Source: Sinomonas susongensis
GTDB lineage: Bacteria; Actinomycetota; Actinomycetes; Actinomycetales; Micrococcaceae
Assembly (NCBI RefSeq): GCF_005877005.1
Contig: NZ_SSNH01000008.1
Location: 62,001-126,000, forward strand
Reading direction: 5' to 3'
Length of the DNA: 64,000 nt
Shown: piece after piece, positions 4,269 through 38,376 of the stretch
Layout of the letters: each line of letters opens with the position of its first letter
Numbering within the stretch: the first letter of the stretch is position 1
Position numbers and translations under genes: made by a program
The notes under the pieces: generated by a model
The model's database searches: none
Told to the model about the DNA's origin: nothing
What the model saw: the letters and a program-made list of their open reading frames with translations, nothing else

Positions 4269-4341
4269 CGTTTCGGGTACAGCTAATCCCTCCCTGCGTC
4301 GTTTCGGGTACGGCTATGCCGGTCTGGGGTTGTTCGGGTAG
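4269..4341 (+). repeat. CGTTTCGGGTAC-type 3' repeat, locus A
   Basis: Two copies of CGTTTCGGGTAC (4269 and 4300), followed by a decayed TTCGGGTAG (4333-4341), start 19 nt after the MarR stop in the gene's orientation. The first copy continues as AGCTAATCCC, close to the AGATAATCCCC found after grpE. The same core occurs at 4499-4510 (reverse), 18544-18647 and 38297-38376. Confidence 0.75.
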
Positions 4342-4396
4342 GGCTACGGGGCGCCCACCAGAATCATCATTTTGTGCTGACTCTGTCGAGGTGGGG

Positions 4397-4510
4397 GTTG
4401 GTGTACCCGAGTTGGTTGGGGGTGGGGGGTTGGTGTACCCGAGTTGGTTGGGGGTGGGGGGTTGGTGTACCCGAGTTGGTTGGGGGTGGGGGGTTGGTGT
4501 ACCCGAAACG
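4397..4510 (-). repeat. Tandem 32-bp repeats ending in the CGTTTCGGGTAC core, locus B
   Basis: Three full 32-bp units, each starting GTTGGTGTACCCGAGTTGG and ending in a G-run, occupy 4397-4492. A partial fourth unit (4493-4510) reads GTTGGTGTACCCGAAACG. On the minus strand that partial unit is CGTTTCGGGTACACCAAC, starting 17 nt after the mmsB stop. The units are near identical without unique spacers, so this is not a CRISPR array. The rest of the 278-bp convergent gap 4250-4527 holds locus A and no gene. Confidence 0.8.
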
Positions 4511-4527
4511 TCGTGGAGGAGGGTTCG

Positions 4528-5457
4528 CTAGTCCTGTGACGAGCGGTCCCGGATATCGGTGATGATGCCCGAGAAGTCCCGCCGCGCGCCGTCGCCCGCA
4601 GCAAATTCGTCGTAGATCCTCGAGGCGAGCGGGCCCATCTGCGCGGCGACCCCAGTCTGTTCGATGGCCTGCAGTGCGAGCCGGAGGTCCTTGGCCATGA
4701 GCGTGCCGGCGAAGCCCGGCTGGTAGTCCCGGTTCGCAGGGCTCGTGGGCACAGGACCGGGGACCGGGCAGTTCGTCGTGAGGGCCCAGCACTGTCCCGA
4801 GGCATGGGCGGCGACGTCGAACAGCGCCTCATGGGTGAGGCCGAGCTTCTCTCCAAGCACGAACGCCTCGGACACCGCGATCATGGAGACGCCCAGGATC
4901 ATGTTGTTGCAGACCTTCGCCGCCTGGCCGAGGCCGTGCCCGCCGCAAGGCACAATCCGCTTGCCCATGAAGCCCAGAAGCGGCTCGACCTCGGCGAAGT
5001 CCTGGTCCTCGCCTCCGACCATGAACGTGAGAGTCGCGGCCTCGGCCCCGACGACGCCGCCCGAGACGGGCGCGTCGACGAACCGGTGCCCCGCGCGGAC
5101 CGCGGTCTCCGCGGCCTCACGGGCCTCGGCGACGTTGATCGTCGAGCAGTCGAGGAACAGCGTCCCCGGAGTTGCGTTCGCCAGCAGGCCGGGGTTTCCC
5201 TCACCGCCGCGGTAGACGTCCAGGACCTGTTGGCCGGTCTGCAGCATCGTGAGGACGACGGCGGCGCCCTCCGCCGCTTCGGCCGCGGACCCCGCGACCT
5301 CGACCCCCAGGGCGCGGGCAGCTTCGGCGGCCGCAGGGAACGGGTCGAAGCCGATCACCTTCTTCCCGGCCTTGACGAGGTTGGCCGCCATCGGGGCGCC
5401 CATGTGGCCGAGGCCGAGGAAGGCGATCCGCCCGCTCGCGACTCCGTTCTCGCTCAT
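4528..5457 (-). CDS. mmsB: 3-hydroxyisobutyrate dehydrogenase
   Basis: The 309-aa NAD(P)-dependent beta-hydroxyacid dehydrogenase oxidises 3-hydroxyisobutyrate to methylmalonate semialdehyde in valine degradation. The N-terminal Rossmann motif is GLGHMGAPMAANLVKAG. The substrate signature DAPVSGG follows near residue 130. The catalytic-lysine segment GLGQAAKVCNNMILG follows near residue 175. Length is typical. The ATG lies 1 nt after the mmsA stop on the same strand, so the two form an operon with consecutive pathway steps. The paralogue at 53093-54025 is tartronate-semialdehyde reductase by context; linkage to mmsA separates the two. Confidence 0.9.
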   Translation of the reverse strand: MSENGVASGRIAFLGLGHMGAPMAANLVKAGKKVIGFDPFPAAAEAARALGVEVAGSAAEAAEGAAVVLTMLQTGQQVLDVYRGGEGNPGLLANATPGTLFLDCSTINVAEAREAAETAVRAGHRFVDAPVSGGVVGAEAATLTFMVGGEDQDFAEVEPLLGFMGKRIVPCGGHGLGQAAKVCNNMILGVSMIAVSEAFVLGEKLGLTHEALFDVAAHASGQCWALTTNCPVPGPVPTSPANRDYQPGFAGTLMAKDLRLALQAIEQTGVAAQMGPLASRIYDEFAAGDGARRDFSGIITDIRDRSSQD

Positions 5458-5458
5458 G

Positions 5459-6979
5459 TCAGCTTCCTTCCGGCATCACGAAGTGGGCGCCCTGGCGGAT
5501 CCCGGAGGGCCAGCGGCTCGTCACGGTCTTGGTCTTCGTGTAGAAGCGGAAGGCGTCGGGCCCGTGCTGGTTGAGGTCCCCGAAGCCGGAGGCCTTCCAG
5601 CCGCCGAACGTGTAGTAGGCGATCGGCACAGGGATCGGAACGTTGACCCCGACCATCCCCACTTCGACGCGGCTCGCGAAGTCCCGGGCGGAGTCGCCGT
5701 CGCGCGTGAAGATGGCGACGCCGTTGCCGTACGGGTTCTCGCTGCAGAGCCGGAGGGCGTCCTCGTAGTCCTCGGCGCGGACGACGCTCAGCACGGGCCC
5801 GAAGATCTCGTCGCGGTAGATGCTCATTTCCGGCGTGACCCGGTCGAAGAGGGTTGCGCCGACCCAGAAGCCGTCTTCGAAGCCGTCCACCGCCGCGCCG
5901 CGGCCGTCGGCCACGAGGGTTGCGCCCTCCTCGACGCCCGCCGCGATGTAGTCCTCGATCCGCTCCTTGGCCGCGGGCGTCACGACAGGCCCGAAGTCGG
6001 AGCCCTTGTCGAGGCTCGGGCCCACGGTCAGGCCTTGGATGCGGCTTTCGAGTGCCGCGATGAGACGGTCGCCCGTCTCCTCTCCGACGGGCACCGCGAC
6101 AGAGATCGCCATGCAGCGCTCGCCGGCGGAGCCATACGCGGCACCGATGAGGGCGTCCGCGGCCATGTCGAGGTCCGCGTCCGGCATGATCACCATGTGG
6201 TTCTTGGCGCCGCCGAAGCACTGGGCCCGCTTGCCGTGCGCGGCGGCGGTCGCGTAGATGTACTGGGCGATCGGCGTGGAGCCCACGAAGCCGATGGCTT
6301 TGACGCGCGGGTCCTCGAGGAGCGTGTCCACGGCCTCTTTGTCGCCGTTCACCACGTTGAAGACGCCGTCGGGCAGCCCGGCCTCGGTGAAGAGCTCCGC
6401 GAGCCGCAGGGGCACCGAAGGGTCCCGTTCCGAGGGCTTGAGGATGAAGGCGTTGCCTGCGGCGAGCGCCGGGCCGCACTGCCACAGCGGAATCATCGCG
6501 GGGAAGTTGAACGGCGCGATGCCGGCGACGACGCCGAGGGGCTGGCGGAGCGAGTGGACGTCGAGGCCTTGGCCCACGCTGTCGGAGAACTCTCCCTTGA
6601 GGAGGTGCGGCGCGCCGGCCGAGAACTCGACGACCTCGATGCCGCGTTGGACGTCGCTCCGGGCATCGGCGAGGGTCTTGCCGTGCTCGCGTGAGAGCAG
6701 CTCGGCGAGCTCGTCGAGGTTGGCGTTGACGAGGTCGACGAACCTGAGGAGGATCCTGCCTCGCCGCTGCGGATTGAGCGCGGCCCATTCGGCCTGGCCC
6801 TTCTCGGCGCTCGCGATGGCGCCCCGGACCTCGTCCGCACTGGCCAGGGGGACCCTGCCCTGCACCCTGCCTCTGCACGGGTCGAAGATGTCCCCGAAGC
6901 GTCCTGAGGTGCCCTCGACTCGCTGCCCACCGACGTAGTGGGAAAGGTCGTAGACCGTGTTGGAGGACTCTTGCACCAT
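5459..6979 (-). CDS. mmsA: Methylmalonate-semialdehyde dehydrogenase (CoA-acylating)
   Basis: The 506-aa aldehyde dehydrogenase converts methylmalonate semialdehyde plus CoA and NAD to propionyl-CoA. Diagnostic features are FNFPAMIPLWQCGPAL in the NAD-binding half, FVGSTPIAQYIY, and the nucleophile segment GSAGERCMAIS. The family's Cys-Met pair in this segment distinguishes MmsA from ordinary aldehyde dehydrogenases. Length fits the family. The ATG at 6979 has GGAGCG upstream, and the gene is followed directly by mmsB. Upstream (6980-7120) lies an untranscribed gap shared with the converging end of pabC; no clear operator was seen there. Confidence 0.92.
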   Translation of the reverse strand: MVQESSNTVYDLSHYVGGQRVEGTSGRFGDIFDPCRGRVQGRVPLASADEVRGAIASAEKGQAEWAALNPQRRGRILLRFVDLVNANLDELAELLSREHGKTLADARSDVQRGIEVVEFSAGAPHLLKGEFSDSVGQGLDVHSLRQPLGVVAGIAPFNFPAMIPLWQCGPALAAGNAFILKPSERDPSVPLRLAELFTEAGLPDGVFNVVNGDKEAVDTLLEDPRVKAIGFVGSTPIAQYIYATAAAHGKRAQCFGGAKNHMVIMPDADLDMAADALIGAAYGSAGERCMAISVAVPVGEETGDRLIAALESRIQGLTVGPSLDKGSDFGPVVTPAAKERIEDYIAAGVEEGATLVADGRGAAVDGFEDGFWVGATLFDRVTPEMSIYRDEIFGPVLSVVRAEDYEDALRLCSENPYGNGVAIFTRDGDSARDFASRVEVGMVGVNVPIPVPIAYYTFGGWKASGFGDLNQHGPDAFRFYTKTKTVTSRWPSGIRQGAHFVMPEGS

Positions 6980-7120
6980 GACGGAACGCTCCTTTGCATC
7001 CGGTCCGGATTGTGATCCACGTCTCTTCGGGATCTAGGTTCGAAGATACTCGGACTTCCAACTAAGTTCCAGAGGCAGGGGGCGGGCCCGGGCGGGGGCC
7101 CGTCGGAGAGAGCGGACCGA

Positions 7121-8032
7121 CTACGCGATGGCGTCGAAGAGCCCCGCGAGTTCCTCGGTCAGGGCCTTGACGAGCGCAGGCTCGCCGATGGCCTTGCCGT
7201 CGAGGTGGTTCACCGGCGTGAGGAGCCGCACCGAGGAGATGAGCCAGAGGGCGTCGGCGTCGAACAGGTCCTCAGGCTCGAGCGGGCCGTAGCCGAGCTC
7301 CCACCCCGCCTCCTTCGCGGCGGCGAAGAGCGCCCCCTGCGAGGTGCCCGGGAGGATCCCGGAATCGAGCTGGGGGGTGACGAGCCTCTTGGCGGTGATG
7401 CGGCCGCCGTCGTCCGTTTCCGCGTGGGCGACCAGAACCGTCGAGGTGGGGCCCTCGAGCACCCGGCCGTCGGAGGAGGTGAAGATGACGTCGTCGGCGC
7501 CCTGGGCGTGCGCGTAGCGGAGCGCGGCCATGTTGACGGCGTAGCTGAGCGTCTTCGCGCCGAGCAGGAGCCAGGGCGCCCTTTCGGCAAGGTCGGAATC
7601 GTAGCCGCGGTCGAGGAGGATGGCGTCGACGCCCTCCTCGCGCTGCCGCCTCGCGGACTGCGCTGGGGCGAAGGCCGCAACCCAGCACGTCGGCACATGC
7701 TCGCCCTCCACGCCGCGCGTGGCCACGAGCCGCACGACGACCTCGTCGAGCACCCCCACCGTCCGCTGGTACTCCGCCAGCGCGGTAGCGATCGCGCGCT
7801 CCCAGGCCTCGTGCCCGGGGATCGCGAGCTCGAGCATGCGCGCGCTCGAGCCGAGCCGCGAGAGGTGCGCAGGGAGCTTGCGGACGTGGCCGTCGAGCAC
7901 GAGGAGCGTCTCGAAGATGCCGTCGCCGCGGGTCACCCCAAGATCGGTCGCAGAGAGCGTGGGCCTTCCGGCGTCCTCGACACGACCGTCGGGGTGGGTG
8001 GGGTCGAGGAAGACGAGCACGGTCTGAGTCAT
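7121..8032 (-). CDS. pabC: Aminodeoxychorismate lyase / class IV aminotransferase
   Basis: The 303-aa PLP enzyme of fold type IV probably cleaves 4-amino-4-deoxychorismate to p-aminobenzoate and pyruvate for folate synthesis. GVTRGDGIFETLLV near residue 33 and the Schiff-base lysine in LLGAKTLSYAVNMAALRYA near residue 165 are characteristic. VLEGPTSTVLV and a PQLDSGILPGTS loop follow. A branched-chain or D-amino-acid aminotransferase is possible by sequence alone, but the kinase-PabB fusion 1.5 kb away favours PabC. The ATG is preceded by TAAGCT plus 6 nt, indicating a leaderless message. Its -10 element overlaps that of the divergent cls gene. Confidence 0.8.
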   Translation of the reverse strand: MTQTVLVFLDPTHPDGRVEDAGRPTLSATDLGVTRGDGIFETLLVLDGHVRKLPAHLSRLGSSARMLELAIPGHEAWERAIATALAEYQRTVGVLDEVVVRLVATRGVEGEHVPTCWVAAFAPAQSARRQREEGVDAILLDRGYDSDLAERAPWLLLGAKTLSYAVNMAALRYAHAQGADDVIFTSSDGRVLEGPTSTVLVAHAETDDGGRITAKRLVTPQLDSGILPGTSQGALFAAAKEAGWELGYGPLEPEDLFDADALWLISSVRLLTPVNHLDGKAIGEPALVKALTEELAGLFDAIA

Positions 8033-8038
8033 GGGGAC

Positions 8039-8048
8039 AGCTTAGGCT
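8039..8048. promoter_or_regulatory. Overlapping divergent -10 elements of pabC and cls
   Basis: The 10-bp sequence AGCTTAGGCT contains TAAGCT on the minus strand (8044-8039) and TAGGCT on the plus strand (8043-8048), sharing the central TA. Each hexamer is followed by exactly 6 nt and an ATG (8032 minus, 8055 plus). Both messages are therefore expected to start at or next to the A of their ATG. Confidence 0.6.
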
Positions 8049-8054
8049 GTGCCC

Positions 8055-9524
8055 ATGCTCTTCCAGCTGCCTCTCATCGGCGTCCTGCCGGACTGGGCAA
8101 CGTTTTTCGTTGCGGTCATCGACCTCGTGATCCGGGTCGCCGTCCTCGGCATCATCCCCGGCAACCGGCGCCCGACGACCGCCATGGCGTGGCTGCTCGC
8201 CATCTTCGTCATCCCCACGGTCGGGCTCCTGCTGTTCCTCATGTTCGGCAACTTCCGGGTGTCCCGGAAGCGCCGTGAGCAGCAGCAGGAGGTCGACAAC
8301 CGGGTGCGCGCAACGCTTGCGAGGTCCGACGACGTCGACACTCGCTTCCCGGGGGCCGAGTGGCTTCATTCGGCGGCCGCGCTCAACCGGCACCTCGGTT
8401 CGCTGCCCATGGTCAACGGGAACACCGTCCGGCTCATCCCCGGCTACGAGGACGCGCTCGCCGAGATGGCGGAAGCCGTGCGGGGCGCCCAGCGGTTCGT
8501 CAACGCAGAGTTCTACATCATGAGCTCGGACGAGGTGACGGACGAGCTCTTCACTGCGCTCGAGGAGGCGGCGGAGCGAGGGGTCGAGGTCCGGCTGCTG
8601 TTCGACCACATCGGAACGGCACGGATCCACGGCTACCGTGGCCTGCTGCGGCGGTTGGGCGCCTCCAAGATCCAGTGGCAGCGGATGCTCCCGCTCCTTC
8701 CGCTCCTGGGCCACTGGCGGCGTCCGGATCTGCGCAACCACCGCAAGATCCTCGTGATCGACGGCGAGGTCGCTTTCACCGGATCGCTCAACCTCATCGA
8801 GCGCTCGTACCGGAACCCGCGGCACCGCCGGGTAGGCCGCAAGTGGGTCGAGCTCATGGCGCGGCTCGACGGACCGGCTGTGACGACCCTCAATGTCGTC
8901 TTCGCGACGGACTGGCTGAGCGAGACCGGCCAGCTCCTGGGCGAGCAGATGGAGCCGCCCGAGCCCGTCGGGGAGATGGCGGCGCAGGTCGTCCCGAGCG
9001 GCCCCGCCTTCGCGAACGAGAACAACCTCCGCCTCTTCAACACGCTCATCTACTCGGCGCAGCACCGGCTGTCCATCTGCAGCCCGTATTTCGTGCCCGA
9101 CGATTCGCTCCTCTACGCGGTGACGACGGCGGCGCAGCGCGGGGTCGACGTCGAGCTGTTCGTGTCCGAGCAGGGCGACCAGTTCCTCGTCCATCACGCC
9201 CAGCAGTCCTACTACGAGGTGCTGCTTGCCGCCGGGGTGAAGATCTACCGCTACCCGAAGCCGTACGTCCTCCACGCCAAGCACTTCACCGTCGACGACG
9301 ACGTCGCCGTCCTCGGCTCGTCCAACATGGACATGCGCTCGTTCTCCCTCAACATGGAGGTCTCGCTCATGCTGCCCGGGGCGAGCATCGTCGCGCAGAT
9401 GCGCCGGGTCGAGGACATGTACCGCAAGATCAGCCTGCCCGTCGACCTCCACACGTGGCGGCAGCGCTCGCTCCTCAGCCGCTACGTGGACAACGTCGCG
9501 CGCCTCACCGCAACGGTGCAGTGA
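8055..9524 (+). CDS. cls: Cardiolipin synthase, phospholipase D family
   Basis: The 489-aa membrane enzyme condenses phosphatidylglycerol units to cardiolipin. Two N-terminal transmembrane helices (about residues 10-30 and 45-65) precede two HKD phosphotransferase motifs, NHRKILVIDGEVAFTGSLN and LHAKHFTVDDDVAVLGSSNMD. YRYPKPYVLHAKHF and the C-terminal catalytic half are intact. GTG at 8049 is also in frame, but TAGGCT ends 6 nt before ATG 8055, which supports the later, leaderless start. The gene is convergent with the kinase-PabB gene, and their stop codons abut with no gap (9524/9525). Confidence 0.88.
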   Translation: MLFQLPLIGVLPDWATFFVAVIDLVIRVAVLGIIPGNRRPTTAMAWLLAIFVIPTVGLLLFLMFGNFRVSRKRREQQQEVDNRVRATLARSDDVDTRFPGAEWLHSAAALNRHLGSLPMVNGNTVRLIPGYEDALAEMAEAVRGAQRFVNAEFYIMSSDEVTDELFTALEEAAERGVEVRLLFDHIGTARIHGYRGLLRRLGASKIQWQRMLPLLPLLGHWRRPDLRNHRKILVIDGEVAFTGSLNLIERSYRNPRHRRVGRKWVELMARLDGPAVTTLNVVFATDWLSETGQLLGEQMEPPEPVGEMAAQVVPSGPAFANENNLRLFNTLIYSAQHRLSICSPYFVPDDSLLYAVTTAAQRGVDVELFVSEQGDQFLVHHAQQSYYEVLLAAGVKIYRYPKPYVLHAKHFTVDDDVAVLGSSNMDMRSFSLNMEVSLMLPGASIVAQMRRVEDMYRKISLPVDLHTWRQRSLLSRYVDNVARLTATVQ

Positions 9525-11630
9525 TCACTCGGGGAACGTCGCGCCGAGGGTGCTGAGGACCGCGAACGATTTGGCGCGGATCTCGTCGTGCTCGGCGTCT
9601 GGGTCGGAGTCGGCGACGACGGCGCCGCCCACCCCGAGCGAGAGCCTCGCGGTGCCGTCCTCGTTCGCCGCGACGATGAGGGTGCGGATCACGACGCTGA
9701 GGTCCGCCGCGCCCGTGCGCGAGAAGTAGCCGATCGCACCCGAGTAGACGCCGCGCGGCGCCCCTTCGAGCCGGTCAAGGATGTCCATGGTGCTGATCTT
9801 CGGCGCCCCGGTCATGGACCCGGGCGGGAAGGCGGCCGCGACGGCCTCGGCCCGGGAGGCGCCGGGGCGGAGCTTCGCCTCGACCGTGCTGACGAGCTGG
9901 TGGACCGTGGCGTAGGTTTCGACGGCGAAGAGCCGGGCCACCGTGACCGATCCGGGGACGGCGAAGTGGCTCAGGTCGTTGCGGAGCAGGTCCACGATCA
10001 TGAGGTTCTCGGCGCGGTCCTTGGCATTGCCCGCGAGTTCGGCGCGGACGAGGGCGTCCTCGTCAGGAAGCACTCCGGGCGCTCGGCGCCGGGTGCCCTT
10101 GATCGGCTCGGCGCGCAGCCCGCCGTCGTCCGCGATGCTCAGGAAGCGCTCGGGGGAGCTGCTCGCGATGGCGGCGGTACCGAAGCGGGCGAAGGCGGCG
10201 AACGGCGCGGGGCTCCGCCGCCGCAAGGCCTGGTACACGGCCCACGCGTCGAGCTCCGCGGCCGCCACGGTCGCCCGGAGGGCGGTCGTGAGGCAGACCT
10301 CGTAGGTTGTCCCCTCGGTGATCTCGGCCTTCGCGGCACGGACCCTGTCCCGGTACGCGGCGCCGTCGTCCCGTGCCGAGAAGGCGGGCGCGGCGGGGAG
10401 CCGAAGGGGCTTCTCGCGAGCCCCGGAGGCGGCGCCGCGCACGAGGCGCGCGGCTTCGTCGAGCCATGCGTCGGCGTCGGGCGCCGCGAGGGCGAGCAGC
10501 CACGCCTCCTCGCGCTCGTGGTCCAGGACGACGGCGCGGGCCGCGTGGACGAGCTGGGCGTCGGGCATGCCGAGGCCGTCCGCGGAGGCGGCGCTCACGT
10601 CATTGCCGCCGCATTCGCGCTTGAGCTCGTAGCCGAGGTAGCCGAGCCAGCCGAGCGCGAACCCGCACTCGAGGCCCGGGGGTGCAGGCTCCCCGCCGTG
10701 GGCCCACGAGCCGTCCAGCCAGCGGAAGAACGGCTGGTCGAAGCGTGCGGTCGCGGGCGTGGGTGTCTGGGGGCCGAACGTCACGCTCGTGACGCCGTCG
10801 CTGTGGGCCAGCCGGCGCCCGAGGAGGCCGCCGTCGTCGGCCATGATGCTGAAGCGGTTCCGGGCCCCCGCGCCGGGGGCCGAAGCACCGGGGGAACTGG
10901 GCCGGTCGGACGAGTCCAGCCAGACGGCGTGCGCCGCCTCGCCGTACATGGCGTCGAAGAGCGCGCTCGGCTCGGGAGCGGCGGTGATCCGCCTGACGAC
11001 GACGGCCGCGGAGTCACGCTCGGCACGTTCCGGGGCGAGCGCCTCGCGGAGGGCCGGGACCTCTGCCAGCGCGTCGAGCACGCGGCGGGTCGTCTGCTCG
11101 GGGCGGGGAGTCCCTGCGGAGGAGGCGACCGTGACCGCGGCGGCGGCAGCGACGTCGTCGGCCGCGAGCCACGCGTCCTCCTGCGCGGCCCAGCGCTCCC
11201 AGTGCGGCGCGTACGTCTCGCCGTCGCGCTCGAGCGCGCGACGGCGCCGCTCGCCGGCGGGGGCCTCGACCCAGACGACCGCGTCCCCGACGCCTCGGAG
11301 CTGCTTCGCACCAGCCCCGACGCCCTCGAGCACCACGATCTCGGCAGGCTCTGTCACCCGCTCTTCGCCTTCGGCCCCGGCGAGCCAGTCCCAGGCGCGC
11401 CAGCGGGCGGGCTCACCGCGCCGGAGCGGGGCGAGGACGTCGGCAGCACAGCGCTCGATCCCGCGCGCGAGCCCATCCCACCCCGGATACAGGTCTTCGA
11501 GGTGGACCAGTGCGACCGTGCGGTGCTCGCGCAGGGCCGCCGCGAGCTCGACGGCGAGGGACGTCTTTCCCGCGCCCGAGCGGCCGTCGACGGCGATCAC
11601 GCTCGGGCGGGCAATGCGCTGCTGGGTCAC
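9525..11630 (-). CDS. pabB: Fusion of a P-loop (uridine-kinase-like) domain with aminodeoxychorismate synthase component I
   Basis: The 701-aa protein has two parts. Residues 1 to about 200 form a P-loop NTPase with Walker A GRSGAGKT (16-23) and a nucleoside/uridine-kinase-like layout. The remaining ~490 residues are a chorismate-binding domain with TYEVCLTTAL, PIKGTRRRAPG, NAKDRAENLMIVDLLRNDLSH and GSMTGAPK. PIKGT is typical of PabB rather than TrpE. With a separate PabA-type amidotransferase this half would make aminodeoxychorismate. The GTG at 11630 overlaps the phosphatase stop (GTGA), so translation is coupled. The open frame continues to 12833, but that part is a shadow of the phosphatase and LysE genes. 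The role of the kinase domain is unknown. Confidence 0.85.
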   Translation of the reverse strand: MTQQRIARPSVIAVDGRSGAGKTSLAVELAAALREHRTVALVHLEDLYPGWDGLARGIERCAADVLAPLRRGEPARWRAWDWLAGAEGEERVTEPAEIVVLEGVGAGAKQLRGVGDAVVWVEAPAGERRRRALERDGETYAPHWERWAAQEDAWLAADDVAAAAAVTVASSAGTPRPEQTTRRVLDALAEVPALREALAPERAERDSAAVVVRRITAAPEPSALFDAMYGEAAHAVWLDSSDRPSSPGASAPGAGARNRFSIMADDGGLLGRRLAHSDGVTSVTFGPQTPTPATARFDQPFFRWLDGSWAHGGEPAPPGLECGFALGWLGYLGYELKRECGGNDVSAASADGLGMPDAQLVHAARAVVLDHEREEAWLLALAAPDADAWLDEAARLVRGAASGAREKPLRLPAAPAFSARDDGAAYRDRVRAAKAEITEGTTYEVCLTTALRATVAAAELDAWAVYQALRRRSPAPFAAFARFGTAAIASSSPERFLSIADDGGLRAEPIKGTRRRAPGVLPDEDALVRAELAGNAKDRAENLMIVDLLRNDLSHFAVPGSVTVARLFAVETYATVHQLVSTVEAKLRPGASRAEAVAAAFPPGSMTGAPKISTMDILDRLEGAPRGVYSGAIGYFSRTGAADLSVVIRTLIVAANEDGTARLSLGVGGAVVADSDPDAEHDEIRAKSFAVLSTLGATFPE

Positions 11631-18529: not shown

Positions 18530-18543
18530 GGCCCTGCAAGCTC

Positions 18544-18647
18544 CGTTTCGGGTACAGATAATCCCCTTCGGAGGCGTTTCGGGTACGCGAACTACACCGT
18601 CCGCGTACCCGAAACGAAGAATTTGGGGATTATCTGTACCCGAGACG
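18544..18647. repeat. Nested inverted repeat of the CGTTTCGGGTAC family between grpE and dnaJ, locus C
   Basis: The outer arms 18544-18566 and 18625-18647 are complementary at 22 of 23 positions. The inner arms 18575-18589 and 18602-18616 (CGTTTCGGGTACGCG) are perfectly complementary over 15 bp around a 12-nt loop. Each arm contains one copy of the TTTCGGGTAC core. Transcribed from the dnaK promoter it would fold into a long, nearly continuous hairpin ending 35 nt before the dnaJ start. Confidence 0.9.
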
Positions 18648-18681
18648 ATAAGAATGATGAAGGAACGAGAAGGAGGCCCCA

Positions 18682-19686
18682 GTGGCTAGTCAGGATTGGG
18701 TGGAGAAGGACTTCTACTCCATTCTCGGCGTGCCCAAGGACGCCTCCGAAGCCGACATCAAGAAGGCCTACCGAAAGCTTGCACGCAAGTACCATCCTGA
18801 CCAGAACCCGGGAGACCCCGAGGCAGAGAAGAAGTTCAAGGACATCACCGAGGCGAACTCGGTCCTGAGCGACCCCGAGGAGCGCCAGCAGTACGACGCC
18901 ATCCGCGCGATGGGCGGTGCCCGCTTCACGGCCGGCGGCCCAGGCGCGGCGGGGCAGGGAGCAGCTGGCTTCGAGGACCTCTTCGGAGGCCTGTTCGGCG
19001 GCGGAGCCGGCCGGCACTCCCGGGGATTCAACACGGGCAACCTCCCGCCGGAGTTCGCCGACCTGTTCGGCGGTTTCAGCACAGGGGGCGGCGGCTTCAG
19101 CACGGGAGGCGCCGGCTACCAGGCACCGCCCCAGCGCGGAGGCGACCGGCAGGCGACCACCACGATCTCGTTCGCGGGCTCGATCCGCGGCACGACTGTG
19201 GGCCTGCGCGAGCAGAACGGCGAGGTGATCGAGGTCCGCATCCCTGCCGGGATCCGCGACGGCCAGAAGGTCCGCGTTCGCGGCAAGGGAAGCCCCGGAT
19301 CCGGTGGTCCCGGCGACCTCATGGTCACGGTCCACGTGACCCCGCACGAGTTCTTCACGCGCGAGGGCGACAACATCCGGATCCACGTGCCCGTGAGCTT
19401 CGACGAGGCCGCGCTCGGCGCCCAGATCGAGGTCCCGACGCTCGACGGCCGCACCGTGCGGATGAAGATTCCCGCCGGCACGAACTCGGGGCGGACGCTC
19501 CGGGTCAAGGGCCAGGGCGTCAAGACGTCCAAGGGCACGGGGGACCTCCTCGTGACGGTCGACGTCGTCGTGCCGCAGAACCTCTCCAAGGAGGCGGAGG
19601 AGGCCGTGCGGGCCTTCGCGGCGGCGACCGCCAAGAACTCCGAGTCGAACCCGCGGACCGGCTTGGCCGCAAAGGCAAGGCTGTAG
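18682..19686 (+). CDS. dnaJ: DnaJ chaperone (Hsp40), zinc-finger-less type
   Basis: The 334-aa co-chaperone stimulates DnaK ATPase. The J domain (residues about 10-75) has the HPD motif in [17 protein letters not shown] and ends with QYDAIR. A Gly/Phe-rich linker follows ([21 protein letters not shown] and [15 protein letters not shown]). The two C-terminal beta domains follow directly. There are no CxxCxGxG repeats, so this is the CbpA-like type B protein usual for the hspR-linked actinobacterial gene. GTG at 18682 has AAGGAGG upstream. The long hairpin in front may set its expression relative to dnaK-grpE. Confidence 0.95.
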
Positions 19687-31407: not shown

Positions 31408-31408
31408 T

Positions 31409-31437: not shown

Positions 31438-31460
31438 TTGGGTACAACTAAGGAGGCCAC

Positions 31461-32024
31461 ATGCCGGAAATCGATCCTTCGTACGCGGGGGAATGGCGCT
31501 TCGACCCCGCCCACACGCGCCTTGGATTCTCAACCCGCCACGCGATGGTCACGAAGGTCCGTGGATCCTTCAACGATGTCGAAGGTGTCATCAACGTCGA
31601 CCCCGAGGACCCGACCGCCTCCAGTGTCAACGTGACGATCAAGGTCGCGAGCATCGATACGCGCAACGCCCAGCGTGACGAGCACCTTCGCACCAACGAC
31701 TTCTTCGATGCCCCGCATTATCCAGAGATCACGTTCGTGAGCAAGCGGATCGACCAGGTGGAGGAGAACAGCTTCATCGTGAGCGGCGATCTCACCATCC
31801 GCGGCGTCACGAAGGAGATCGCGATCCCGCTCGAGTTCATCGGGGTCGAACGCGACCCGATGGGCAACCTCCGCGCCGGCTTCGAGGGCTCCCGCCGGAT
31901 CGACCGCAAGGACTTCGGGGTCAACTGGAACGCGGCCCTCGACTCGGGCGGTGTGCTCGTCTCCGACCGCATCCTGCTCGAGTTCGAGATCTCGGCGGTC
32001 AAGACCGAGGCGTCACAGAACTAG
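31461..32024 (+). CDS. YceI family lipocalin-like protein
   Basis: The 187-aa protein has the YceI core: WRFDPAHTRLGFSTRHAMVTKVRGSFNDVEG at the start, IDTRNAQRDEHLRTNDFFDAPHYPEITFVSKRI in the middle, and DLTIRGVTKEIAIPLEF near residue 110. It ends DFGVNWNAALDSGGVLVSDRILLEFEI. YceI proteins bind isoprenoid or amphiphilic ligands in a beta barrel. No signal peptide is visible, so this one is probably cytosolic. ATG 31461 follows AAGGAGG at 4-5 nt. It has its own promoter with palindromes on both sides, implying specific control. Confidence 0.9.
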   Translation: MPEIDPSYAGEWRFDPAHTRLGFSTRHAMVTKVRGSFNDVEGVINVDPEDPTASSVNVTIKVASIDTRNAQRDEHLRTNDFFDAPHYPEITFVSKRIDQVEENSFIVSGDLTIRGVTKEIAIPLEFIGVERDPMGNLRAGFEGSRRIDRKDFGVNWNAALDSGGVLVSDRILLEFEISAVKTEASQN

Positions 32025-32027
32025 TCC

Positions 32028-32579
32028 ATGGACGCGAACGAGGCGCCCGGGGGGCCGGCTCAGGCCGACCCGCTGGGCGCCTTCGTCGTCGTCGCGTGGA
32101 TCGAACCCGCGGGGGTCGGCGTCCCGTTCAGCAAGCGCGAGTGGCCACTCCATGTGACGCTCCTGCGGTTCGACGCGCCCCGAGTTCCCGCGCTCGACGC
32201 CGTGGGTCGCGCGATCGCCGTCGACGACGGCCCGATACCGGTCGTCGTCGCGGGCGACGCCGACTTCGGCTTCCGCGGCCGCGTCCGGGTTTCCCTTGTG
32301 CAACCGGAGCCCAGGCTGCAGGCGCTGCACGACCGGATCGTCGCCGAGGTGGCGGAAGCGGTCGAGGCAGGGGGCGGACGCATCCACAGCCCCCAGCACA
32401 CCGGCGCGGGCTTCCGGCCGCATATCAGCGTTCAGGGCGAGCGGCGGGTCCATCGCGGGGAGAGGCTGATCCTCGACACCTTTGCGCTCGTCGACATGGC
32501 GCCCGACGGCGACTCGTCCATCCGGGTCCCCGTGGCGGCATGGGGAGAAGGCGCTGGGCGGGCGGCTCGGCGGGCGTAG
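32028..32579 (+). CDS. 2'-5' RNA ligase / cyclic phosphodiesterase-like protein
   Basis: The 183-aa member of the 2H phosphoesterase superfamily has its two His motifs as WPLHVTLLRF (near residue 42) and RPHISVQ (near residue 129), the second with Ser instead of the usual Thr. This fold processes 2'-5' or cyclic phosphodiester bonds in RNA; the physiological substrate is unknown. It lies 3 nt after the YceI stop and probably belongs to its transcript. An Ala/Arg-rich tail ends the protein. Confidence 0.72.
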   Translation: MDANEAPGGPAQADPLGAFVVVAWIEPAGVGVPFSKREWPLHVTLLRFDAPRVPALDAVGRAIAVDDGPIPVVVAGDADFGFRGRVRVSLVQPEPRLQALHDRIVAEVAEAVEAGGGRIHSPQHTGAGFRPHISVQGERRVHRGERLILDTFALVDMAPDGDSSIRVPVAAWGEGAGRAARRA

Positions 32580-32597
32580 CTCACCGGTCCCCGTGGA

Positions 32598-33518
32598 TCA
32601 GTCCGTGGGGAGCGGCTCTCGCTCGAGGCCTGACGGATCAGCCCGGAGCTGCTCCAGCTCGGTCCGGAGGTTCGTGTGGGCCCGCGCGAGCCACAGTTCG
32701 CGGCCGCGCGGCGTGTGGAAGAGCGGGTCGAGGTCGAGGAGCTGGCTGAGGACGGCTGCCCGCCCTGCGCGGAAGAGCTCGTCCGGAACGTGAGCGTACT
32801 CGTCCCGCACCTGCTCGGTGTACCGGCGGTAGCCTGCCGGCTCGCGGCCCAGCACGGAAAGGTCGGCGTCGCACAGGAGCTGGCCGGCGTCGTCGTCCGC
32901 GGAGGGCCGGTGGTCCGCGGTGAGACGGACGAGCCGCGCCACCTCGTCGACGTCCTCGGGCGGGAGGCCCGCGGCGCGCAGCCGCGCCTCCGCGAGCAGC
33001 GCGGATTCCTCCTCGTCGCGCCCGGCTGTGCCAGTGTGCACTGCGTCGTGGAACCACGCGGCGAGCTCGACGGCGCGCGGTACGGCGGCGTCGTCGGCCA
33101 GCGTTTCGAGCGCCGTGAGGACGGCGAAGAGGTGGGCCCGCGTGTGATACCGCCGGTGCGGCTCGGACCAGCGCTCGAGGAGCTCGCTGCCGAGGGCCGT
33201 GCGGCCGGGGAGGAGCCGCTCCCACCGCTGCGCGAGCGGAGTGGTGAGTGCCTTGGCCCGCTCGCGCGCCCGGATCCGGAGCCCCGATGCGATGAGTGCC
33301 CGCGTGAGCGTGCGGCCGTCGACGGGAACGGCCCCCCTTCGCACCAGGTCTGCGTGCCGCCGCTCCGAGACGTCGTAGTGGTCTTCGTCGAAGGCCCGTT
33401 CGGGGACCTCGGCGGCCGCAGCGAAGGCGTGCAGCTCGGCGAGGGATGTGTCCGAGACGAGGTGGGCGAAGACAGTCCCGTGCGCGGGCCACATCGGGGT
33501 GTCGATGAGGATCGTCAT
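32598..33518 (-). CDS. DUF4031-HD domain protein
   Basis: The 306-aa two-domain protein begins with ILIDTPMWPAHGTVFAHLVSD, typical of DUF4031, and covers about residues 1-85. From about residue 110 there is an HD-superfamily metal phosphohydrolase-like domain with RRYHTRAHLFAVLTALE, AAWFHDAVHTG and LTADHRPSADDDAGQLLCDADLSVLG. The His/Asp pattern is intact, so hydrolase activity is plausible; the substrate is unknown. ATG 33518 has CACAAT 7 nt upstream and was preferred over the ATG at 33527. It is divergent from clpB and convergent with the RNA-ligase-like gene. Confidence 0.8.
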   Translation of the reverse strand: MTILIDTPMWPAHGTVFAHLVSDTSLAELHAFAAAAEVPERAFDEDHYDVSERRHADLVRRGAVPVDGRTLTRALIASGLRIRARERAKALTTPLAQRWERLLPGRTALGSELLERWSEPHRRYHTRAHLFAVLTALETLADDAAVPRAVELAAWFHDAVHTGTAGRDEEESALLAEARLRAAGLPPEDVDEVARLVRLTADHRPSADDDAGQLLCDADLSVLGREPAGYRRYTEQVRDEYAHVPDELFRAGRAAVLSQLLDLDPLFHTPRGRELWLARAHTNLRTELEQLRADPSGLEREPLPTD

Positions 33519-33566
33519 GGGCTCCATTGTGGCCCGAAAAGGAGGCCGCCTGAGTTGCCCCCCATA

Positions 33567-33587
33567 CTTGAGTGGAATACACTCAAC
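33567..33587. promoter_or_regulatory. HAIR element (HspR operator) upstream of clpB
   Basis: CTTGAGT-N7-ACTCAAC matches the HspR consensus at all but the last base, the best of the three sites here. It ends 10 bp before a TTGACC -35-like box (33597-33602) that pairs at 17 bp with TTCAGT (33620-33625). Confidence 0.9.
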
Positions 33588-33607
33588 TTAGGTGCGTTGA
33601 CCTAAGT
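33586..33607. promoter_or_regulatory. Second palindrome overlapping the clpB -35 region
   Basis: ACTTAGGT-N6-ACCTAAGT is a perfect 8-bp inverted repeat abutting the HAIR element. It does not match HAIR, CIRCE or the ClgR motif. It could bind a further regulator of clpB. Confidence 0.5.
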
Positions 33608-33670
33608 AAGAACTTGCCCTTCAGTAACGAAGTGCGCTTTCAGTCCGGTAGCAGGGGGAAGGAGCTCGCA

Positions 33671-36310
33671 TTGGACGTCAAATTCACCACCAAGAGCCAG
33701 GAGGCGCTCTCCGCTGCGGCGATGAACGCCTCGACGGCAGGAAATCCGCAGGTCGAGCCTGCCCACCTCCTCAAGGCGCTCCTGGACCAGCGGGACGGCG
33801 TCGCCGTCGCCCTCCTCCGGGCGACCGGAGCGGACCCCGACGCCGTGAGCCTCGCCGCGAGCACGGCGATCAAGGCGATGCCCTCGAGCTCGGGGAGCAC
33901 CGTCGCCCAGGCCCAGCTGAGCCGCCAGGGACTGCAGGTCATCCACGTCGCGCAGCAGGAGTCCGAGCAGATGGGGGACAGCTTCGTCTCGACGGAGCAC
34001 CTCCTGCTCGGGCTGGCGGCCGACGGCGGGGCGGCCGGCAAGGCGCTCCGCGACGCCGGGGCGACCCTCGAGTCGCTCAAGGCCGCACTCCCCGGGGTGC
34101 GCGGCGACCGCAAGGTCGACAGCCCCGACCCGGAGAACACGTTCCAGGCCCTCGAGAAATACGGCACAGACCTCACCTCCATCGCGCGTTCCGGCAAGCT
34201 CGACCCCGTCATCGGCCGCGACTCGGAGATCCGCCGCGTCATCCAGGTCCTCTCCCGCCGCACCAAGAACAACCCTGTCCTGATCGGCGAACCCGGCGTC
34301 GGCAAGACCGCCGTCGTCGAGGGCCTCGCCCAGCGGATCGTGGCGGGCGACGTGCCCGAGAGCCTGCGCGGGAAGACCCTCATCGCGCTCGACCTCGGAT
34401 CGATGGTCGCGGGCGCGAAGTACCGCGGCGAATTCGAGGAGCGGCTCAAGGCCGTCCTCGAGGAGATCCGCAGCTCAGAAGGGCAGATCGTCACGTTCAT
34501 CGACGAGATCCACACGGTCGTCGGTGCCGGCGCTACCGGCGATTCCTCCATGGACGCGGGCAACATGCTCAAGCCCATGCTCGCCCGCGGCGAGCTGCGG
34601 CTCATCGGTGCCACGACGCTCGACGAGTACCGCGAGAACATCGAGAAGGATGCTGCCCTCGAACGGCGCTTCCAGCAGGTCTTCGTGGGCGAGCCGAGCG
34701 TCGAGGACACGATCGCGATCCTCCGTGGCCTCAAGGAGCGCTACGAGGCCCACCACAAGGTGGCCATTGCGGACTCGGCGCTCGTCGCCGCCGCATCGCT
34801 CTCGAACCGGTACATCTCGGGCCGACAGCTTCCGGACAAGGCGATCGACCTCGTGGACGAAGCGGCGTCACGGCTCCGCATGGAGATCGACTCGGCGCCG
34901 GAGGAGATCGACCAGCTGCGCCGCGCCGTCGACCGCCTCACGATGGAGGAGCTCGCCCTCGAGGGCGAGACCGACGAGGGATCGATCGAGCGGCTCGCCG
35001 CTATCCGTGAGGACATGGCCAACAAGAAGGAAGAGCTGGCCGCCCTCAACGCCCGCTGGGAGGCTGAGAAGGCCGGGCTCAACCGGGTCGGCGAGCTCAA
35101 GGCGAAGCTCGACGAGCTGCGTTCGCTCGCCGACAAGGCCCAGCGCGAGGGCGACCTCGCGGAAGCGTCCCGCATCCTGTACGGCGAGATCCCGACCCTC
35201 GAGCGTGAGCTCAAGGAGGCCTCGGCTGCCGAGGAGCATTTGAGCGGCAAGTCGAAGATGGTCGCCGAGGAGGTCACGGCCGACGATATCGCCGAGGTCA
35301 TCTCGGCGTGGACCGGGATTCCCGCGGGACGCATGCTCCGAGGCGAGAGCCAGAAGCTCCTCCACATGGAAGAGGAGCTCGGCAAGCGCCTCATCGGCCA
35401 GACGAAGGCCGTCCAGGCGGTCTCGGATGCGGTCCGCCGCGCCCGCGCCGGGATCAGCGACCCCAACCGGCCCACTGGTTCCTTCCTGTTCCTGGGGCCG
35501 ACCGGCGTCGGCAAGACCGAGCTCGCCAAGGCCCTCGCGGACTTCCTCTTCGACGACGAGCGCGCCATGGTGCGCATCGACATGAGCGAGTACTCCGAGA
35601 AGCACGCGGTGGCCCGCCTCGTCGGGGCGCCTCCCGGATACGTCGGCTACGAGGAGGGCGGGCAGCTCACCGAGGCAGTGCGGCGCCGGCCCTACTCGGT
35701 GATCCTGCTCGACGAGGTGGAGAAGGCCCATCCCGAGGTGTTCGACATCCTGTTGCAGGTGCTCGACGACGGCCGCCTCACCGACGGCCAGGGGCGGACC
35801 GTGGACTTCCGCAACACGATACTGGTGCTGACCTCGAACCTCGGCAGCCAGTTCCTCGTCGACCCCGAGCTGAGCGAGGCCACGAAGCGCGACGCGGTCA
35901 TGGGCGTGGTGCACTCGTCGTTCAAGCCCGAGTTCCTCAACCGGCTCGACGATGTCATCATCTTCGACCCGCTCTCGGTCGAGGAGCTCGCGAGGATCGT
36001 CCAGCTGCAGGTCGATTCGCTCCAGCGCCGGCTGCACGAGCGGCGTCTCACGCTCGATGTCACCGACGGCGCCCGGGCATGGCTTGCGATGACGGGCTAC
36101 GACGCCGCCTACGGCGCGCGGCCGCTGCGCCGGCTGGTCCAGCGCGAGATCGGCGACCGCCTTGCGAGGGAGCTCCTCTCGGGGGAGATCACCGACGGCG
36201 ACACTGTTCTGGTCGACGTCGCGGACGTCTCGGTGGACCTTCAGGACCTCACGGGCGCCACGAGCGGGCTGAGCGTTACCCGGAAGGCGCCCGCCTCCCA
36301 AGAGGCCTAG
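33671..36310 (+). CDS. clpB: ATP-dependent disaggregase ClpB
   Basis: The 879-aa Hsp100 hexamer unfolds aggregated protein together with DnaK. It shows the Clp N-domain ([30 protein letters not shown]), AAA-1 with Walker A GEPGVGKT and [11 protein letters not shown], the middle coiled coil (about residues 400-530), and AAA-2 with GPTGVGKT and [24 protein letters not shown]. The start chosen is TTG 33671, preceded by AAGGAG at about 7 nt and giving the normal [14 protein letters not shown]-terminus; the frame opens earlier at 33572. The HAIR site upstream places it in the HspR regulon with dnaK. Its stop overlaps the stop of the convergent gene. Confidence 0.96.
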
Positions 36311-36894
36311 GGGAGGAGCGAGGCAGTGAGCGTGTTGCCCTTGGTGCTCTCCACGAAGCAGTCGACGCGCCGGTCCCCGGCAGACCAGCTGCTCTGGCTC
36401 GGGAAGGCGTTCCGCTGCCGGAGCGTGCTCGTGTCCTGAGGGAGAGTGAGCTGGGTCTGTCGGCACAGGTCAGAGGCACGCTGCTCGAGCGCGTCCTTGC
36501 CTGGGTAGGAGCCACCGGCCCCGTACATTGCCGTCGCGACGAGCTGGGCCGAGTGGGCCTGCGTGCAGGGCACGACCCGGTTCGCCTGCGCGCTCGCGTC
36601 GAAGTTCGAGAAGCAGTCGCCGCTCTTGTAGCTCGCGGAAGGGGTCAGCCCCTCCGCCGCGGGGGCCGTCGCCGTCGTGTCGGTTTTCGCGCTTAGCGAA
36701 GCGATGATCGCCCACAGGATGAGGAGGACGACGACGGCGCCGCTCGCTCCGAGCACCTTGCCCCATACGGTGGCCGGGAGCCGAGGACCACGTGGCGCCC
36801 GCCGCGGACGCTCGGGAATCCGGTACTGGCGGCGAGTCATGGGCCTGCCCGGATCCCCCACTGGGCTGCCGTACTGACCCTGCGCGCTCTCCAT
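36307..36894 (-). CDS. Septum-formation-like membrane protein
   Basis: The 195-aa protein has a basic, Pro-rich cytosolic N-terminus (RRQYRIPERPRRAPRGPRL) and one transmembrane helix near residues 48-68 (VLGASGAVVVLLILWAIIAS). The exported domain has SYKSGDCFSNFDASAQANRVVPCTQAHSAQLVAT. The GDCF...VPC...H pattern is that of actinobacterial 'septum formation' domains (DUF4190-associated). ATG 36894 was chosen; the frame extends to 37002. Its stop codon overlaps that of clpB by 3 bp in convergent orientation. Exact role unknown. Confidence 0.78.
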   Translation of the reverse strand: MESAQGQYGSPVGDPGRPMTRRQYRIPERPRRAPRGPRLPATVWGKVLGASGAVVVLLILWAIIASLSAKTDTTATAPAAEGLTPSASYKSGDCFSNFDASAQANRVVPCTQAHSAQLVATAMYGAGGSYPGKDALEQRASDLCRQTQLTLPQDTSTLRQRNAFPSQSSWSAGDRRVDCFVESTKGNTLTASLLP

Positions 36895-37106
36895 GCCGGA
36901 TAGTGCCCCTTCTGCCGTGCTCTCGAGGACTGGGGCACAGCCTCTGGCTGGCCCTCGCATGCCGTTTGGCCGCACACCTCGCGAATGCGCAGGCGGCCGC
37001 AATTACATGTAGTCTAGACCTACGACAAATTGATCAATGACTCCGGGGCCTCGCGAGCCTGCCTTCGCGACTACCTCCGGGACGAGGCAAAAGAGGGGGT
37101 CACGCC

Positions 37107-37325
37107 ATGGGGCGCGGCCGTCAAAAGGCTAAGGCAACCAAGCAGGCTCGTGACATCAAGTACTACAGTCCGAGCACCGACTATGCAGCCCTCGAGCGCG
37201 AGCTCAGTGGGTCGAGCGGTCACTCTGCGCACCATGACGCCGACCTCGAGCCGGATTACTCCGACTACGAGGACAAATACGCCGATCAGTTTGACGACGA
37301 CGAGGACTCCCGCCGGATCGGCTGA
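37107..37325 (+). CDS. DUF3073 small protein
   Basis: The 72-aa protein begins MGRGRQKAKATKQARDIKYYSP, the hallmark of actinobacterial DUF3073, followed by an acidic tail (DYEDKYADQFDDDEDS). The family is small, cytosolic and uncharacterised. ATG 37107 follows GAGGGG. A promoter may lie in the AT-rich TACATGTAGTCTAGACC stretch near 37010. The sirtuin gene follows after 9 bp, so co-transcription is likely. In many actinobacteria this gene neighbours purM/purF, as here. Confidence 0.92.
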   Translation: MGRGRQKAKATKQARDIKYYSPSTDYAALERELSGSSGHSAHHDADLEPDYSDYEDKYADQFDDDEDSRRIG

Positions 37326-37334
37326 TCCGCTCCC

Positions 37335-38276
37335 ATGAGCGAGATCGTCGGAAGCGGAAATGACCCGTCGGTTATGCGCGCCCACGCGGCAGCGCTGCGC
37401 TCGATAGCCCGAGAGGTCGTTGAGACAGCCGAGCTGCAGGATCCTTCCTGTGCTCGCGCTGGGCTGCTCAGCATGCTGCAGGACGGGGCCGTCATGGCTC
37501 TCACCGGCGCTGGCGTCTCCACCGCGTCCGGCATTCCTGACTACCGCGGGCCTCAGGGGTCCTGGCGCAAGCATCGGCCCATGACGTACCAGGAGTTCCG
37601 CCACGATCCGGCCGCGCGGCACCGGTACTGGGCGCGGAGCTTCGTGGGCTGGCGGCACATCGACCGGGCAAGGCCCAACGCCGCCCACCGGGTGCTCGCG
37701 CAGCTGGAGGCGCGCGGCGTCGTGCTCGGAGTCGTCACGCAGAACGTGGACGGTCTCCACGCGGCCGCCGGCTCCCGCAACCTCGTGGCGCTTCACGGCG
37801 ACCTCGACAAGGTCGTGTGCCTCAACTGCGGCAACGTCGAGGGGCGCGCCAATCTCGACGAGCGGCTGGCTCAGGCCAACCCGGGATACGCCGAGGCTGT
37901 GCGCCTCGATCCCCGGACGGTGAACCCCGACGGCGACGTCGAGCTGCCGCAGGGTTGGGTGGACAGGTTCCGCATGGTCGGATGCCTTGTGTGCGGCTCG
38001 GTCGAGCTCAAGCCCGATGTGGTCTACTTCGGCGAGAGCGTCCCGATCGAGCGCAAGGAGCGGGCGACGGCGATGCTCGCCCAGGCGCGGAGCCTCCTGG
38101 TCCTCGGGTCCTCGCTGGCCGTCATGAGCGGCTTCCGGTTCGTGCTGGACGCCGTCCGCGACGGCAAGCCCGTGGGGATCGTGAACGCCGGGCCGACCCG
38201 CGGGGACAGCCGGGCTCACTGGCGCTGGCGGTCCGACGTCGGCGAGGCGCTCGAGGACCTGGCCTCAGCCCTCTGA
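37335..38276 (+). CDS. NAD-dependent protein deacylase (sirtuin)
   Basis: The 313-aa Sir2 family enzyme removes acyl groups from lysines using NAD. The NAD-binding GAGVSTASGIPDYRG is near residue 58, followed by TQNVDGLHAAAG and the catalytic His in VALHGDLDKVVCLNC. Zinc is held by CLNC and CLVC, and DVVYFGESVP and LVLGSSLAVMSG complete the fold. A helical ~45-residue N-terminal extension precedes the core. The gene follows DUF3073 closely. A triple copy of the CGTTTCGGGTACACCAAC repeat starts 20 nt after the stop. Confidence 0.93.
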   Translation: MSEIVGSGNDPSVMRAHAAALRSIAREVVETAELQDPSCARAGLLSMLQDGAVMALTGAGVSTASGIPDYRGPQGSWRKHRPMTYQEFRHDPAARHRYWARSFVGWRHIDRARPNAAHRVLAQLEARGVVLGVVTQNVDGLHAAAGSRNLVALHGDLDKVVCLNCGNVEGRANLDERLAQANPGYAEAVRLDPRTVNPDGDVELPQGWVDRFRMVGCLVCGSVELKPDVVYFGESVPIERKERATAMLAQARSLLVLGSSLAVMSGFRFVLDAVRDGKPVGIVNAGPTRGDSRAHWRWRSDVGEALEDLASAL

Positions 38277-38289
38277 GCCCAACTCACCT

Positions 38290-38376
38290 CAGACGTCGTT
38301 TCGGGTACACCAACGCGCGCCAGACGTCGTTTCGGGTACACCAACGCGCGCCAGACGTCGTTTCGGGTACACCAAC
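38290..38376 (+). repeat. 31-bp tandem repeats with CGTTTCGGGTACACCAAC core, locus D
   Basis: Three units start at 38290, 38321 and 38352 (period 31 bp; the third lacks its last 6 bp). Each reads CAGACGTCGTTTCGGGTAC followed by ACCAACGCGCGC. The core starts 20 nt after the sirtuin stop in the same orientation. The region otherwise separates convergent sirtuin and purM genes and has no ORF. Confidence 0.88.

Follow-up and report, generated by a model that had tools for sequence, protein, structure and literature searches.

RNA hairpins and Rho are the generally accepted means by which bacterial transcription units end, and Reb1 and TTF-I are proteins that terminate transcription as roadblocks. 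Lac-type looping shows a short-range dependence on whole-turn spacing between operators, and the chromosome sites of SlmA and Noc are palindromes that are depleted at the terminus. Here we describe arrays of a short repeat found in a 64,000-nucleotide (nt) stretch of Sinomonas susongensis contig NZ_SSNH01000008.1 (the window) and throughout much of the genus. The units recur every 31 or 32 bp, commonly face each other in inward pairs at distances that follow the turn of the DNA helix, and lie at the ends of genes. We give an even chance to the reading that these arrays of putative binding sites form a protein-dependent barrier to transcription from both directions.

The closest described repeats are the repetitive extragenic palindromes (REP) and the bacterial interspersed mosaic elements (BIME). 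BIMEs are described as binding IHF or gyrase and have proposed roles in termination and supercoiling (PMC2817692, PMC3733652). The CGTC and GTAG families of REP are reported mainly from Proteobacteria, and the terms 'Actinobacteria' and 'Arthrobacter' are absent from the main text of that report (PMC3733652). As for roadblocks, DNA-bound proteins are described as stopping RNA polymerase, in yeast after transcription units, and bacterial roadblocks of this kind as able to end transcription, with Mfd aiding release (PMC10310618).

Repeat unit, facing pairs and helical phase

The 12-mer core CGTTTCGGGTAC occurs in nine exact copies within the window, and 14 times when up to two mismatches are allowed, against 4.04 expected from dinucleotide shuffles (largest shuffle, 10). 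The source genome (G000, 3.77 Mb) holds 54 exact copies, against one of the reversed control pattern. The core is part of an asymmetric unit of about 19 bp, about CGTyTCGGGTACrsMWAMT, in which CGTyTCGGGTAC is followed by a looser tail (A/G)(G/C)(A/C)(A/T)A(A/C)T, giving a tail consensus of roughly TCGGGTAC(A/G)(G/C)(A/C)(A/T)A(A/C)T. The initial annotation had distinguished two types of flank; both occur, but they fall within this one broader consensus. Units of S. atrocyanea carry a clade-specific tail, GCATCTCGTCGC. The unit consensus, judged by eye, has no internal inverted repeat, and palindromes are formed only by facing pairs.

Within arrays the units keep a strict tandem period, which is itself three helical turns. 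Of 353 distinct neighbour spacings below 150 bp, 227 measure 31 bp and 101 measure 32 bp, and off-period spacings are rare (two at 30 bp, three at 33, seven at 62-64). This period is kept although spacer sequences vary from locus to locus. Two cores 30-33 bp apart are found at 98 places in G000 (59 forward, 39 reverse) and at none for the reversed control. The spacers are rich in C: over 311 distinct spacers, the array strand has 51% C and 21% G.

The arrays are strongly oriented with respect to each other. A position-weight scan of 119 regions gives 79 simple inward pairs, one outward pair, two regions of the order > < > < and 37 solo arrays. With exact cores, 115 regions include 60 that are two-sided, three of them with several > arrays, and the order is inward (> <) in 59. 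We define the gap as the distance between the outer ends of the innermost facing exact TCGGGTAC cores. Inward gaps cluster at 24-25, 34-35, 45-46, 55-56, 66-67, 77-78, 87-88, 97-98 and 107-108 bp, with exceptions at, for example, 39, 59, 95 and 100 bp. Loci L129-L154 are included in the exact-core order, spacing and phase counts although their organism names were not shown.

The best period of this ladder, in a scan from 5 to 20, is 10.45 bp (R=0.69; 71 distinct segments with gaps of at most 130 bp), a value that none of 5000 jittered sets reaches. In that first scan the grid was finer for the data than for the jittered sets; with a single grid and one segment per orthology cluster (n=37, at most 130 bp), R is 0.71 at 10.5 bp and is reached by none of 2000 jittered sets. 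Averaged over draws, R is 0.73 at 10.5, 0.48 at 11.0, 0.32 at 11.2 (the value for A-form RNA) and 0.17 at 31.4. A gap that merely lost an inner unit would grow by 31.5 bp. The low mean R at 31.4, together with the use of all three base classes of gap (25, 23 and 18 distinct cases), indicates that the ladder does not arise from one base distance plus loss of units. A later set of loci follows the period and phase fixed beforehand, with p=1.0e-3 (n=16, at most 130 bp), p=4.6e-5 (n=23, at most 170 bp) and p=1.2e-4 (n=26, at most 400 bp); these loci are partly orthologous to the earlier ones but have different gap sequences. Gaps of related regions sometimes differ by about whole turns (25 and 109 bp in one cluster; 54, 74 and 116 in another), and the misfits, mainly long, include 261 and 282 bp in the first of these clusters and 53 and 100 bp in a third. 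Phasing of the distance from the stop codon to the first core is weak at best (R=0.19, n=76).

Selection on the helical phase of DNA has seldom left so clear a mark in natural sequence as this 10.5-bp ladder, and binding sites for a protein that acts on a single face of B-DNA would be expected to give such a pattern. Taken together, the asymmetric unit, the three-turn period and the phased gaps make the arrays look like same-face protein sites read at the level of DNA rather than REP hairpins.

Placement at gene ends and recurrence in Sinomonas

Genes were called with a home-made codon-score caller, and distances near array ends may be off. None of the 124 arrays of at least two units lies inside a gene, where inside means that the gene reaches 60 nt past both ends. 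The initial annotation had proposed looking for copies in coding sequence; arrays are absent from it, but single copies can be genic, as are at least one of the 54 exact copies (locus L046) and a few inexact singles. Control DNA, 20 evenly spaced 16-kb stretches of genome G014, holds three sites, all in coding sequence. The array regions comprise 64 convergent, 50 tandem and 5 divergent gaps (n=119), against 39, 132 and 42 among the intergenic gaps of the same control stretches (n=213), and are thus enriched in convergent gaps and depleted in divergent ones. In the 93 arrays with a same-strand gene upstream, the core begins a median of 15 nt from the stop, with a range of -28 to 611. The placement at 3' ends, which had been described as a fixed 14-20 nt after the stop, therefore holds across the genus, but not as a single fixed distance. 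A role at 3' ends, raised at the same time, is likely in view of this placement and the convergent enrichment.

Five arrays lie in the window:

4269..4311, + strand: array of two exact units at a 31-bp period; the stop that ends at 4249 lies 19 nt before it
4403..4510, - strand: facing array of four units at a 32-bp period; the mmsB stop (4528) is 17 nt away
18544..18586, + strand: array of two units at a 31-bp period; the grpE stop (18529) lies 14 nt before it
18605..18647, - strand: facing array of two units at a 31-bp period, antisense to both grpE and dnaJ
38297..38370, + strand: solo array of three units, period 31, 20 nt after the sirtuin stop (38276) and before the convergent purM

The initial annotation gave four of these places with their distances from the stop correctly (4269, 19 nt; 4510, 17 nt; 18544, 14 nt; 38297, 20 nt); the 31/32-bp period, inward pairing and the fourfold array at mmsB escaped it. 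Its statement that copies follow the orientation of the upstream gene stands for convergent gaps and breaks down in tandem gaps, where the facing array is often antisense and the upstream gene does not alone match the orientation; an example is the array 18605-18647, made up of the units at 18605 and 18636. The gene ending at 4249, called MarR in that annotation, has no NCBIfam match. A degenerate third unit, TTCGGGTAG, lies at 4333, beyond the array that follows this gene, and three of the four units after mmsB, a 3-hydroxyisobutyrate dehydrogenase gene, read ...ACTCGGGTAC. The innermost facing cores of this pair span 107 bp between their outer ends, which fits the 10.5-bp ladder. Those between grpE and dnaJ span 34 bp, a value kept in 9 of the 12 segments that cluster with this locus, with 35, 46 and 88 bp found once each. 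The solo array after the sirtuin gene has as its counterpart in G014 a gap in which five units face five.

We further note that the neighbours of arrays are varied. Those named by NCBIfam include menD, glmS, citrate synthase/galE, ndk, panC, iolB, mfd, sirtuin/purM and groEL; CRP-like and RNase H-like genes fall below the curated cut-offs, and grpE, dnaJ and rpsQ/rplN are named from their translations only. Facing arrays also occupy a 588-bp gap between rpsQ-like and rplN-like ribosomal-protein genes (L032:2177-2766; translation only), of which the counterpart in G014 measures 668 bp (L203).

The arrays are confined to Sinomonas. The spaced double core is present in 13 of 15 Sinomonas genomes, at 2 to 265 places each, and in 3 of 380 genomes of other Micrococcaceae, with one chance-like place each, two of which are short-period repeats. 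A wide search of 257 billion bases matched 106 stretches, and 73 of the 80 matches listed are from Sinomonas; the other seven are estimated to be no more than chance, about 15 being expected at even base composition. Similarly, the exact palindrome TTCGGGTAC-N(4-34)-GTACCCGAA occurs in 12 of 395 genomes, all 12 of them Sinomonas, whereas its reversed control occurs in five, at one place each. A phage or plasmid origin was considered and rejected: a plasmid search with one array (window 38280-38380) gave no match, and the one viral contig that matches the double core (L274:9552-9592) has otherwise unlike units, a match that looks like chance.

Arrays also recur at related loci, with 20 of the 24 array regions of G000 clustering with an array-bearing region of another sampled species. 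Clusters were joined by single linkage on one flanking protein at least 55% identical, which may unite paralogues. At least 13 clusters are common to G000 and G014; only the first places listed for G014 were used, and the sharing counts are lower bounds. Within one cluster, unit number, tails and gap length vary among members. In the ndk gaps of G011 and G012 (L269 and L268), weak inward-facing units still stand 32 bp apart and are likely relics of arrays in species with few copies. One further observation concerns G013, in which citrate synthase occurs twice in tandem (L247 and L258; G013:C23:402124-403404 and 405506-406786) with a run of N beside the second copy, either a real duplication or an assembly fault.

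At the ends of transcription units, arrays flank a hairpin or stand in its place, as is seen at grpE-dnaJ, gltA and ndk, where species without arrays have a hairpin too. The centre measures at least 30 nt in 53 of 81 facing pairs, and a stem of at least 11 is present in 16 of these 53 against none of 53 shuffled centres (the shuffles preserve base composition only). Seven of the 16 hairpins have at least four T in the next 8 nt and nine do not. Facing arrays enclose a hairpin at gltA in nine Sinomonas genomes, with a second hairpin inside the left array in G007; in the gltA gaps of G003, G004, G010, G011, G012 and G013 no site was found and the hairpins are kept. Likewise, the ndk gaps of G006, G009 and G013 have hairpins without sites and that of G010 has one site; two ndk loci (G008 and G004) are cut or lack a called next gene. 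The central hairpins of L034, L056 and L205 share the base GACGACG...CGTCGTC with the innermost core abutting it; L034 and L205 are the gltA locus of two species, and similar hairpin bases occur at ndk.

Between grpE and dnaJ (18530-18699 in the window), a strict hairpin is found in 16 of 28 genomes of other Micrococcaceae genera and a site of the array kind in none of the 28; the hairpin suggests attenuation inside the dnaK operon. In Sinomonas, the element is present in 12 of the 14 gaps recovered: as one simple palindrome in G010, G011 and G012, as a degenerate pair nested within an outer one in G009, and as two nested tiers in the rest. The gaps of G005 and G013 have long unrelated hairpins, and in G007, which is outside these 14, the palindrome adjoins dnaJ by coordinates. 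A dispersed conserved terminator hairpin was also tried as an explanation and rejected, its exact arm being found in 2 of 90 family genomes (4 Sinomonas in the sample) and nowhere in the window with up to three mismatches.

A putative transcription barrier and its rivals

In the reading that we favour, each unit of about 19 bp would be an asymmetric site for one sequence-specific DNA-binding protein, and a spacing of 31-32 bp would place all bound copies on one helix face, three turns apart. Arrays after a stop codon usually have a facing partner at whole-turn distances, so that the two rows may meet or form a bridge over the intergenic DNA, which in some cases contains a strong hairpin whose U-tract is poor. 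Most probably such a structure would serve as a roadblock terminator or insulator that keeps elongating RNA polymerase out of the neighbouring gene. If this is true, helix-phased, facing protein sites would mark gene ends at the level of DNA throughout a genus and delimit its transcription units or chromosome domains in another manner, and a barrier role, if shown, would be a new kind of bacterial terminator. One protein should then bind the arrays, and a 5-bp insertion should break their function. Genomes G010-G013, in which arrays are few or eroded, provide a natural contrast in a search for the factor. More tentatively, it is possible that Sinomonas has a dedicated terminator or insulator protein whose phased rows on both sides, bridged as a facing pair, would make it a bacterial counterpart of Reb1 and TTF-I.

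Several observations weigh against this barrier. No candidate for the cognate protein was found among the 32 of 46 distinct G000 flanking proteins scanned (30 with NCBIfam and 10 with Pfam, two of the latter new), which have ordinary mixed functions. None of the 213 control gaps of G014 holds a site, so arrays stand at few gene ends and are no general terminator. In tandem regions, the antisense facing array has no obvious transcript to stop. Arrays as marks of highly expressed genes were rejected, since codon-bias scores are not raised in array-side genes (39 in G000 against 52 window genes, p=0.26; the reference set included some array-side genes, which would favour them if anything). A roadblock could function at the 37 solo regions, some of which owe their division to dubious small gene calls, but a bridge could not. 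The phasing itself is weaker beyond about 170 bp, and its weakest subset (one segment per cluster, at most 60 bp, n=15) is matched by 25 of 5000 jittered sets. Central hairpins, being confined to the 16 of 53 centres, are not a constant part. Finally, G010 and G013 have no tandem core pair, two further species have only 2 to 4, and individual loci are without arrays in species that bear them elsewhere (gltA in G003 and G004, ndk in G006 and G009), which makes the system dispensable.

The chief rival keeps the putative protein and makes the arrays chromosome-organising or topological sites, which would load a nucleoid protein or a gyrase-like enzyme at gene ends, where inserts are tolerated and supercoils collect. 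We consider this rather unlikely, though the helical phasing fits it equally well and the absence of any bias to genes of high codon bias agrees with it. BIME-2 and BIME-1 are described as binding gyrase and IHF, respectively (PMC2817692). On contig 1 of G014, 2 of the 26 listed clusters fall in the quarter opposite the contig start, which lies near a dnaA-like gene; this replichore bias is weak, comes from the listed clusters, and may be matched by a like bias of core genes. A median of 15 nt after stops and rarity in divergent gaps are tighter than such sites need, some species have no arrays, and the arrays share space with hairpins.

Mobile palindromes of the REP/BIME kind, acting as RNA hairpins in mRNA stability or termination, are an improbable account. 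The arrays are extragenic, follow genes and form inverted pairs, the predicted folds of paired regions are very stable, and copy number ranges from 0 to 265 places among species, all as expected of REP. The initial annotation had named a REP-like mobile origin, and this is not supported: the single unit is non-palindromic, arrays recur beside related genes in different species, and the Y1/RAYT gene (PF01797) is found in 0 of 15 Sinomonas genomes against 5 of 14 control genomes. CGTC REPs are described as also lacking a dedicated RAYT (PMC3733652), so the absence of Y1 rules out the GTAG/RAYT kind alone. Likeness between facing arms does not exceed that of within-species permuted partners: their 12-nt tails match at 5.88 against 6.16 of 12 positions in convergent gaps (n=46; 1909 of 2000 permutations reach the observed value) and at 6.16 against 5.97 in tandem gaps (n=35; 261 of 2000). 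This lack of extra pairing between the arms, with B-DNA phasing at 10.5 rather than 11 bp, disfavours the role in mRNA stability that had also been suggested, and on the same two grounds (arm tails not co-selected, period not 11) we reject an RNA hairpin as the sole function.

Ends of transposons are known that face inward and combine several asymmetric sites, as the arrays do. It is nevertheless very improbable that the arrays are remnants of IS21-, Mu- or Tn7-like ends with multiple transposase sites, retained or domesticated. Short elements would need phased ends, but the gap is variable, solo arrays exist, related loci recur in several species under constrained spacing, and no transposase is named among the 32 G000 flanking proteins scanned. 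Least credible of all are Rho-dependent terminators with the C-rich, G-poor spacers as Rho loading sites after the stop, since the spacer C-skew, though real (mean 0.41 against 0.02 in 121 control 80-nt stretches after G014 stops, p=3.7e-25), is equal on arrays antisense to both flanking genes (0.43, n=22) and on sense arrays (0.43, n=35; p=0.80, five high-array species) and so belongs to the site and not to the gene's transcript, is weak in the two S. atrocyanea genomes (0.12 and 0.22) and absent in S. mesophila (-0.24, 4 spacers), and leaves the exact core and the helical phasing unexplained.

Comparison with known systems

A literature search for the CGTTTCGGGTAC core gave a single match, an unrelated Streptococcus paper, and no paper on phased arrays of this kind was among the matches listed; Rfam covariance models gave no match at E up to 1 (window 4100-4700). 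These searches are consistent with the remark of the initial annotation that no named element has this core.

The arrays resemble the sites of protein roadblock terminators (yeast Reb1, TTF-I; compare the LacI roadblocks of E. coli) in lying just after transcription units with a defined polarity. They differ in being bacterial and in forming phased multi-site arrays in facing pairs. With Lac-type looping they share whole-turn spacing between helically phased sites; unlike Lac operators, they stand at gene ends and not at promoters, in rows of sites, and at dozens of loci. SlmA and Noc sites are scattered sites for one sequence-specific protein, as the arrays may be, but are without tandem three-turn arrays or 3'-end orientation.

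The nearest likeness in placement is to REP/BIME (the GTAG and CGTC families; BIME-1 and BIME-2 of E. coli), which are also short extragenic repeats after genes, with inverted neighbours and many copies. The unit of REP/BIME is an imperfect palindrome that forms a hairpin of 20-40 bp, whereas the Sinomonas unit is not palindromic. Further differences are the tandem 31-32-bp arrays that face inward, the 10.5-bp phasing between arms, the recurrence at related loci, the lack of co-selection between arms, and a Y1/RAYT gene not found in the 15 genomes. We therefore file the arrays among (putatively) protein-binding extragenic repeats, which share the placement of REP/BIME and depart from its defining properties.

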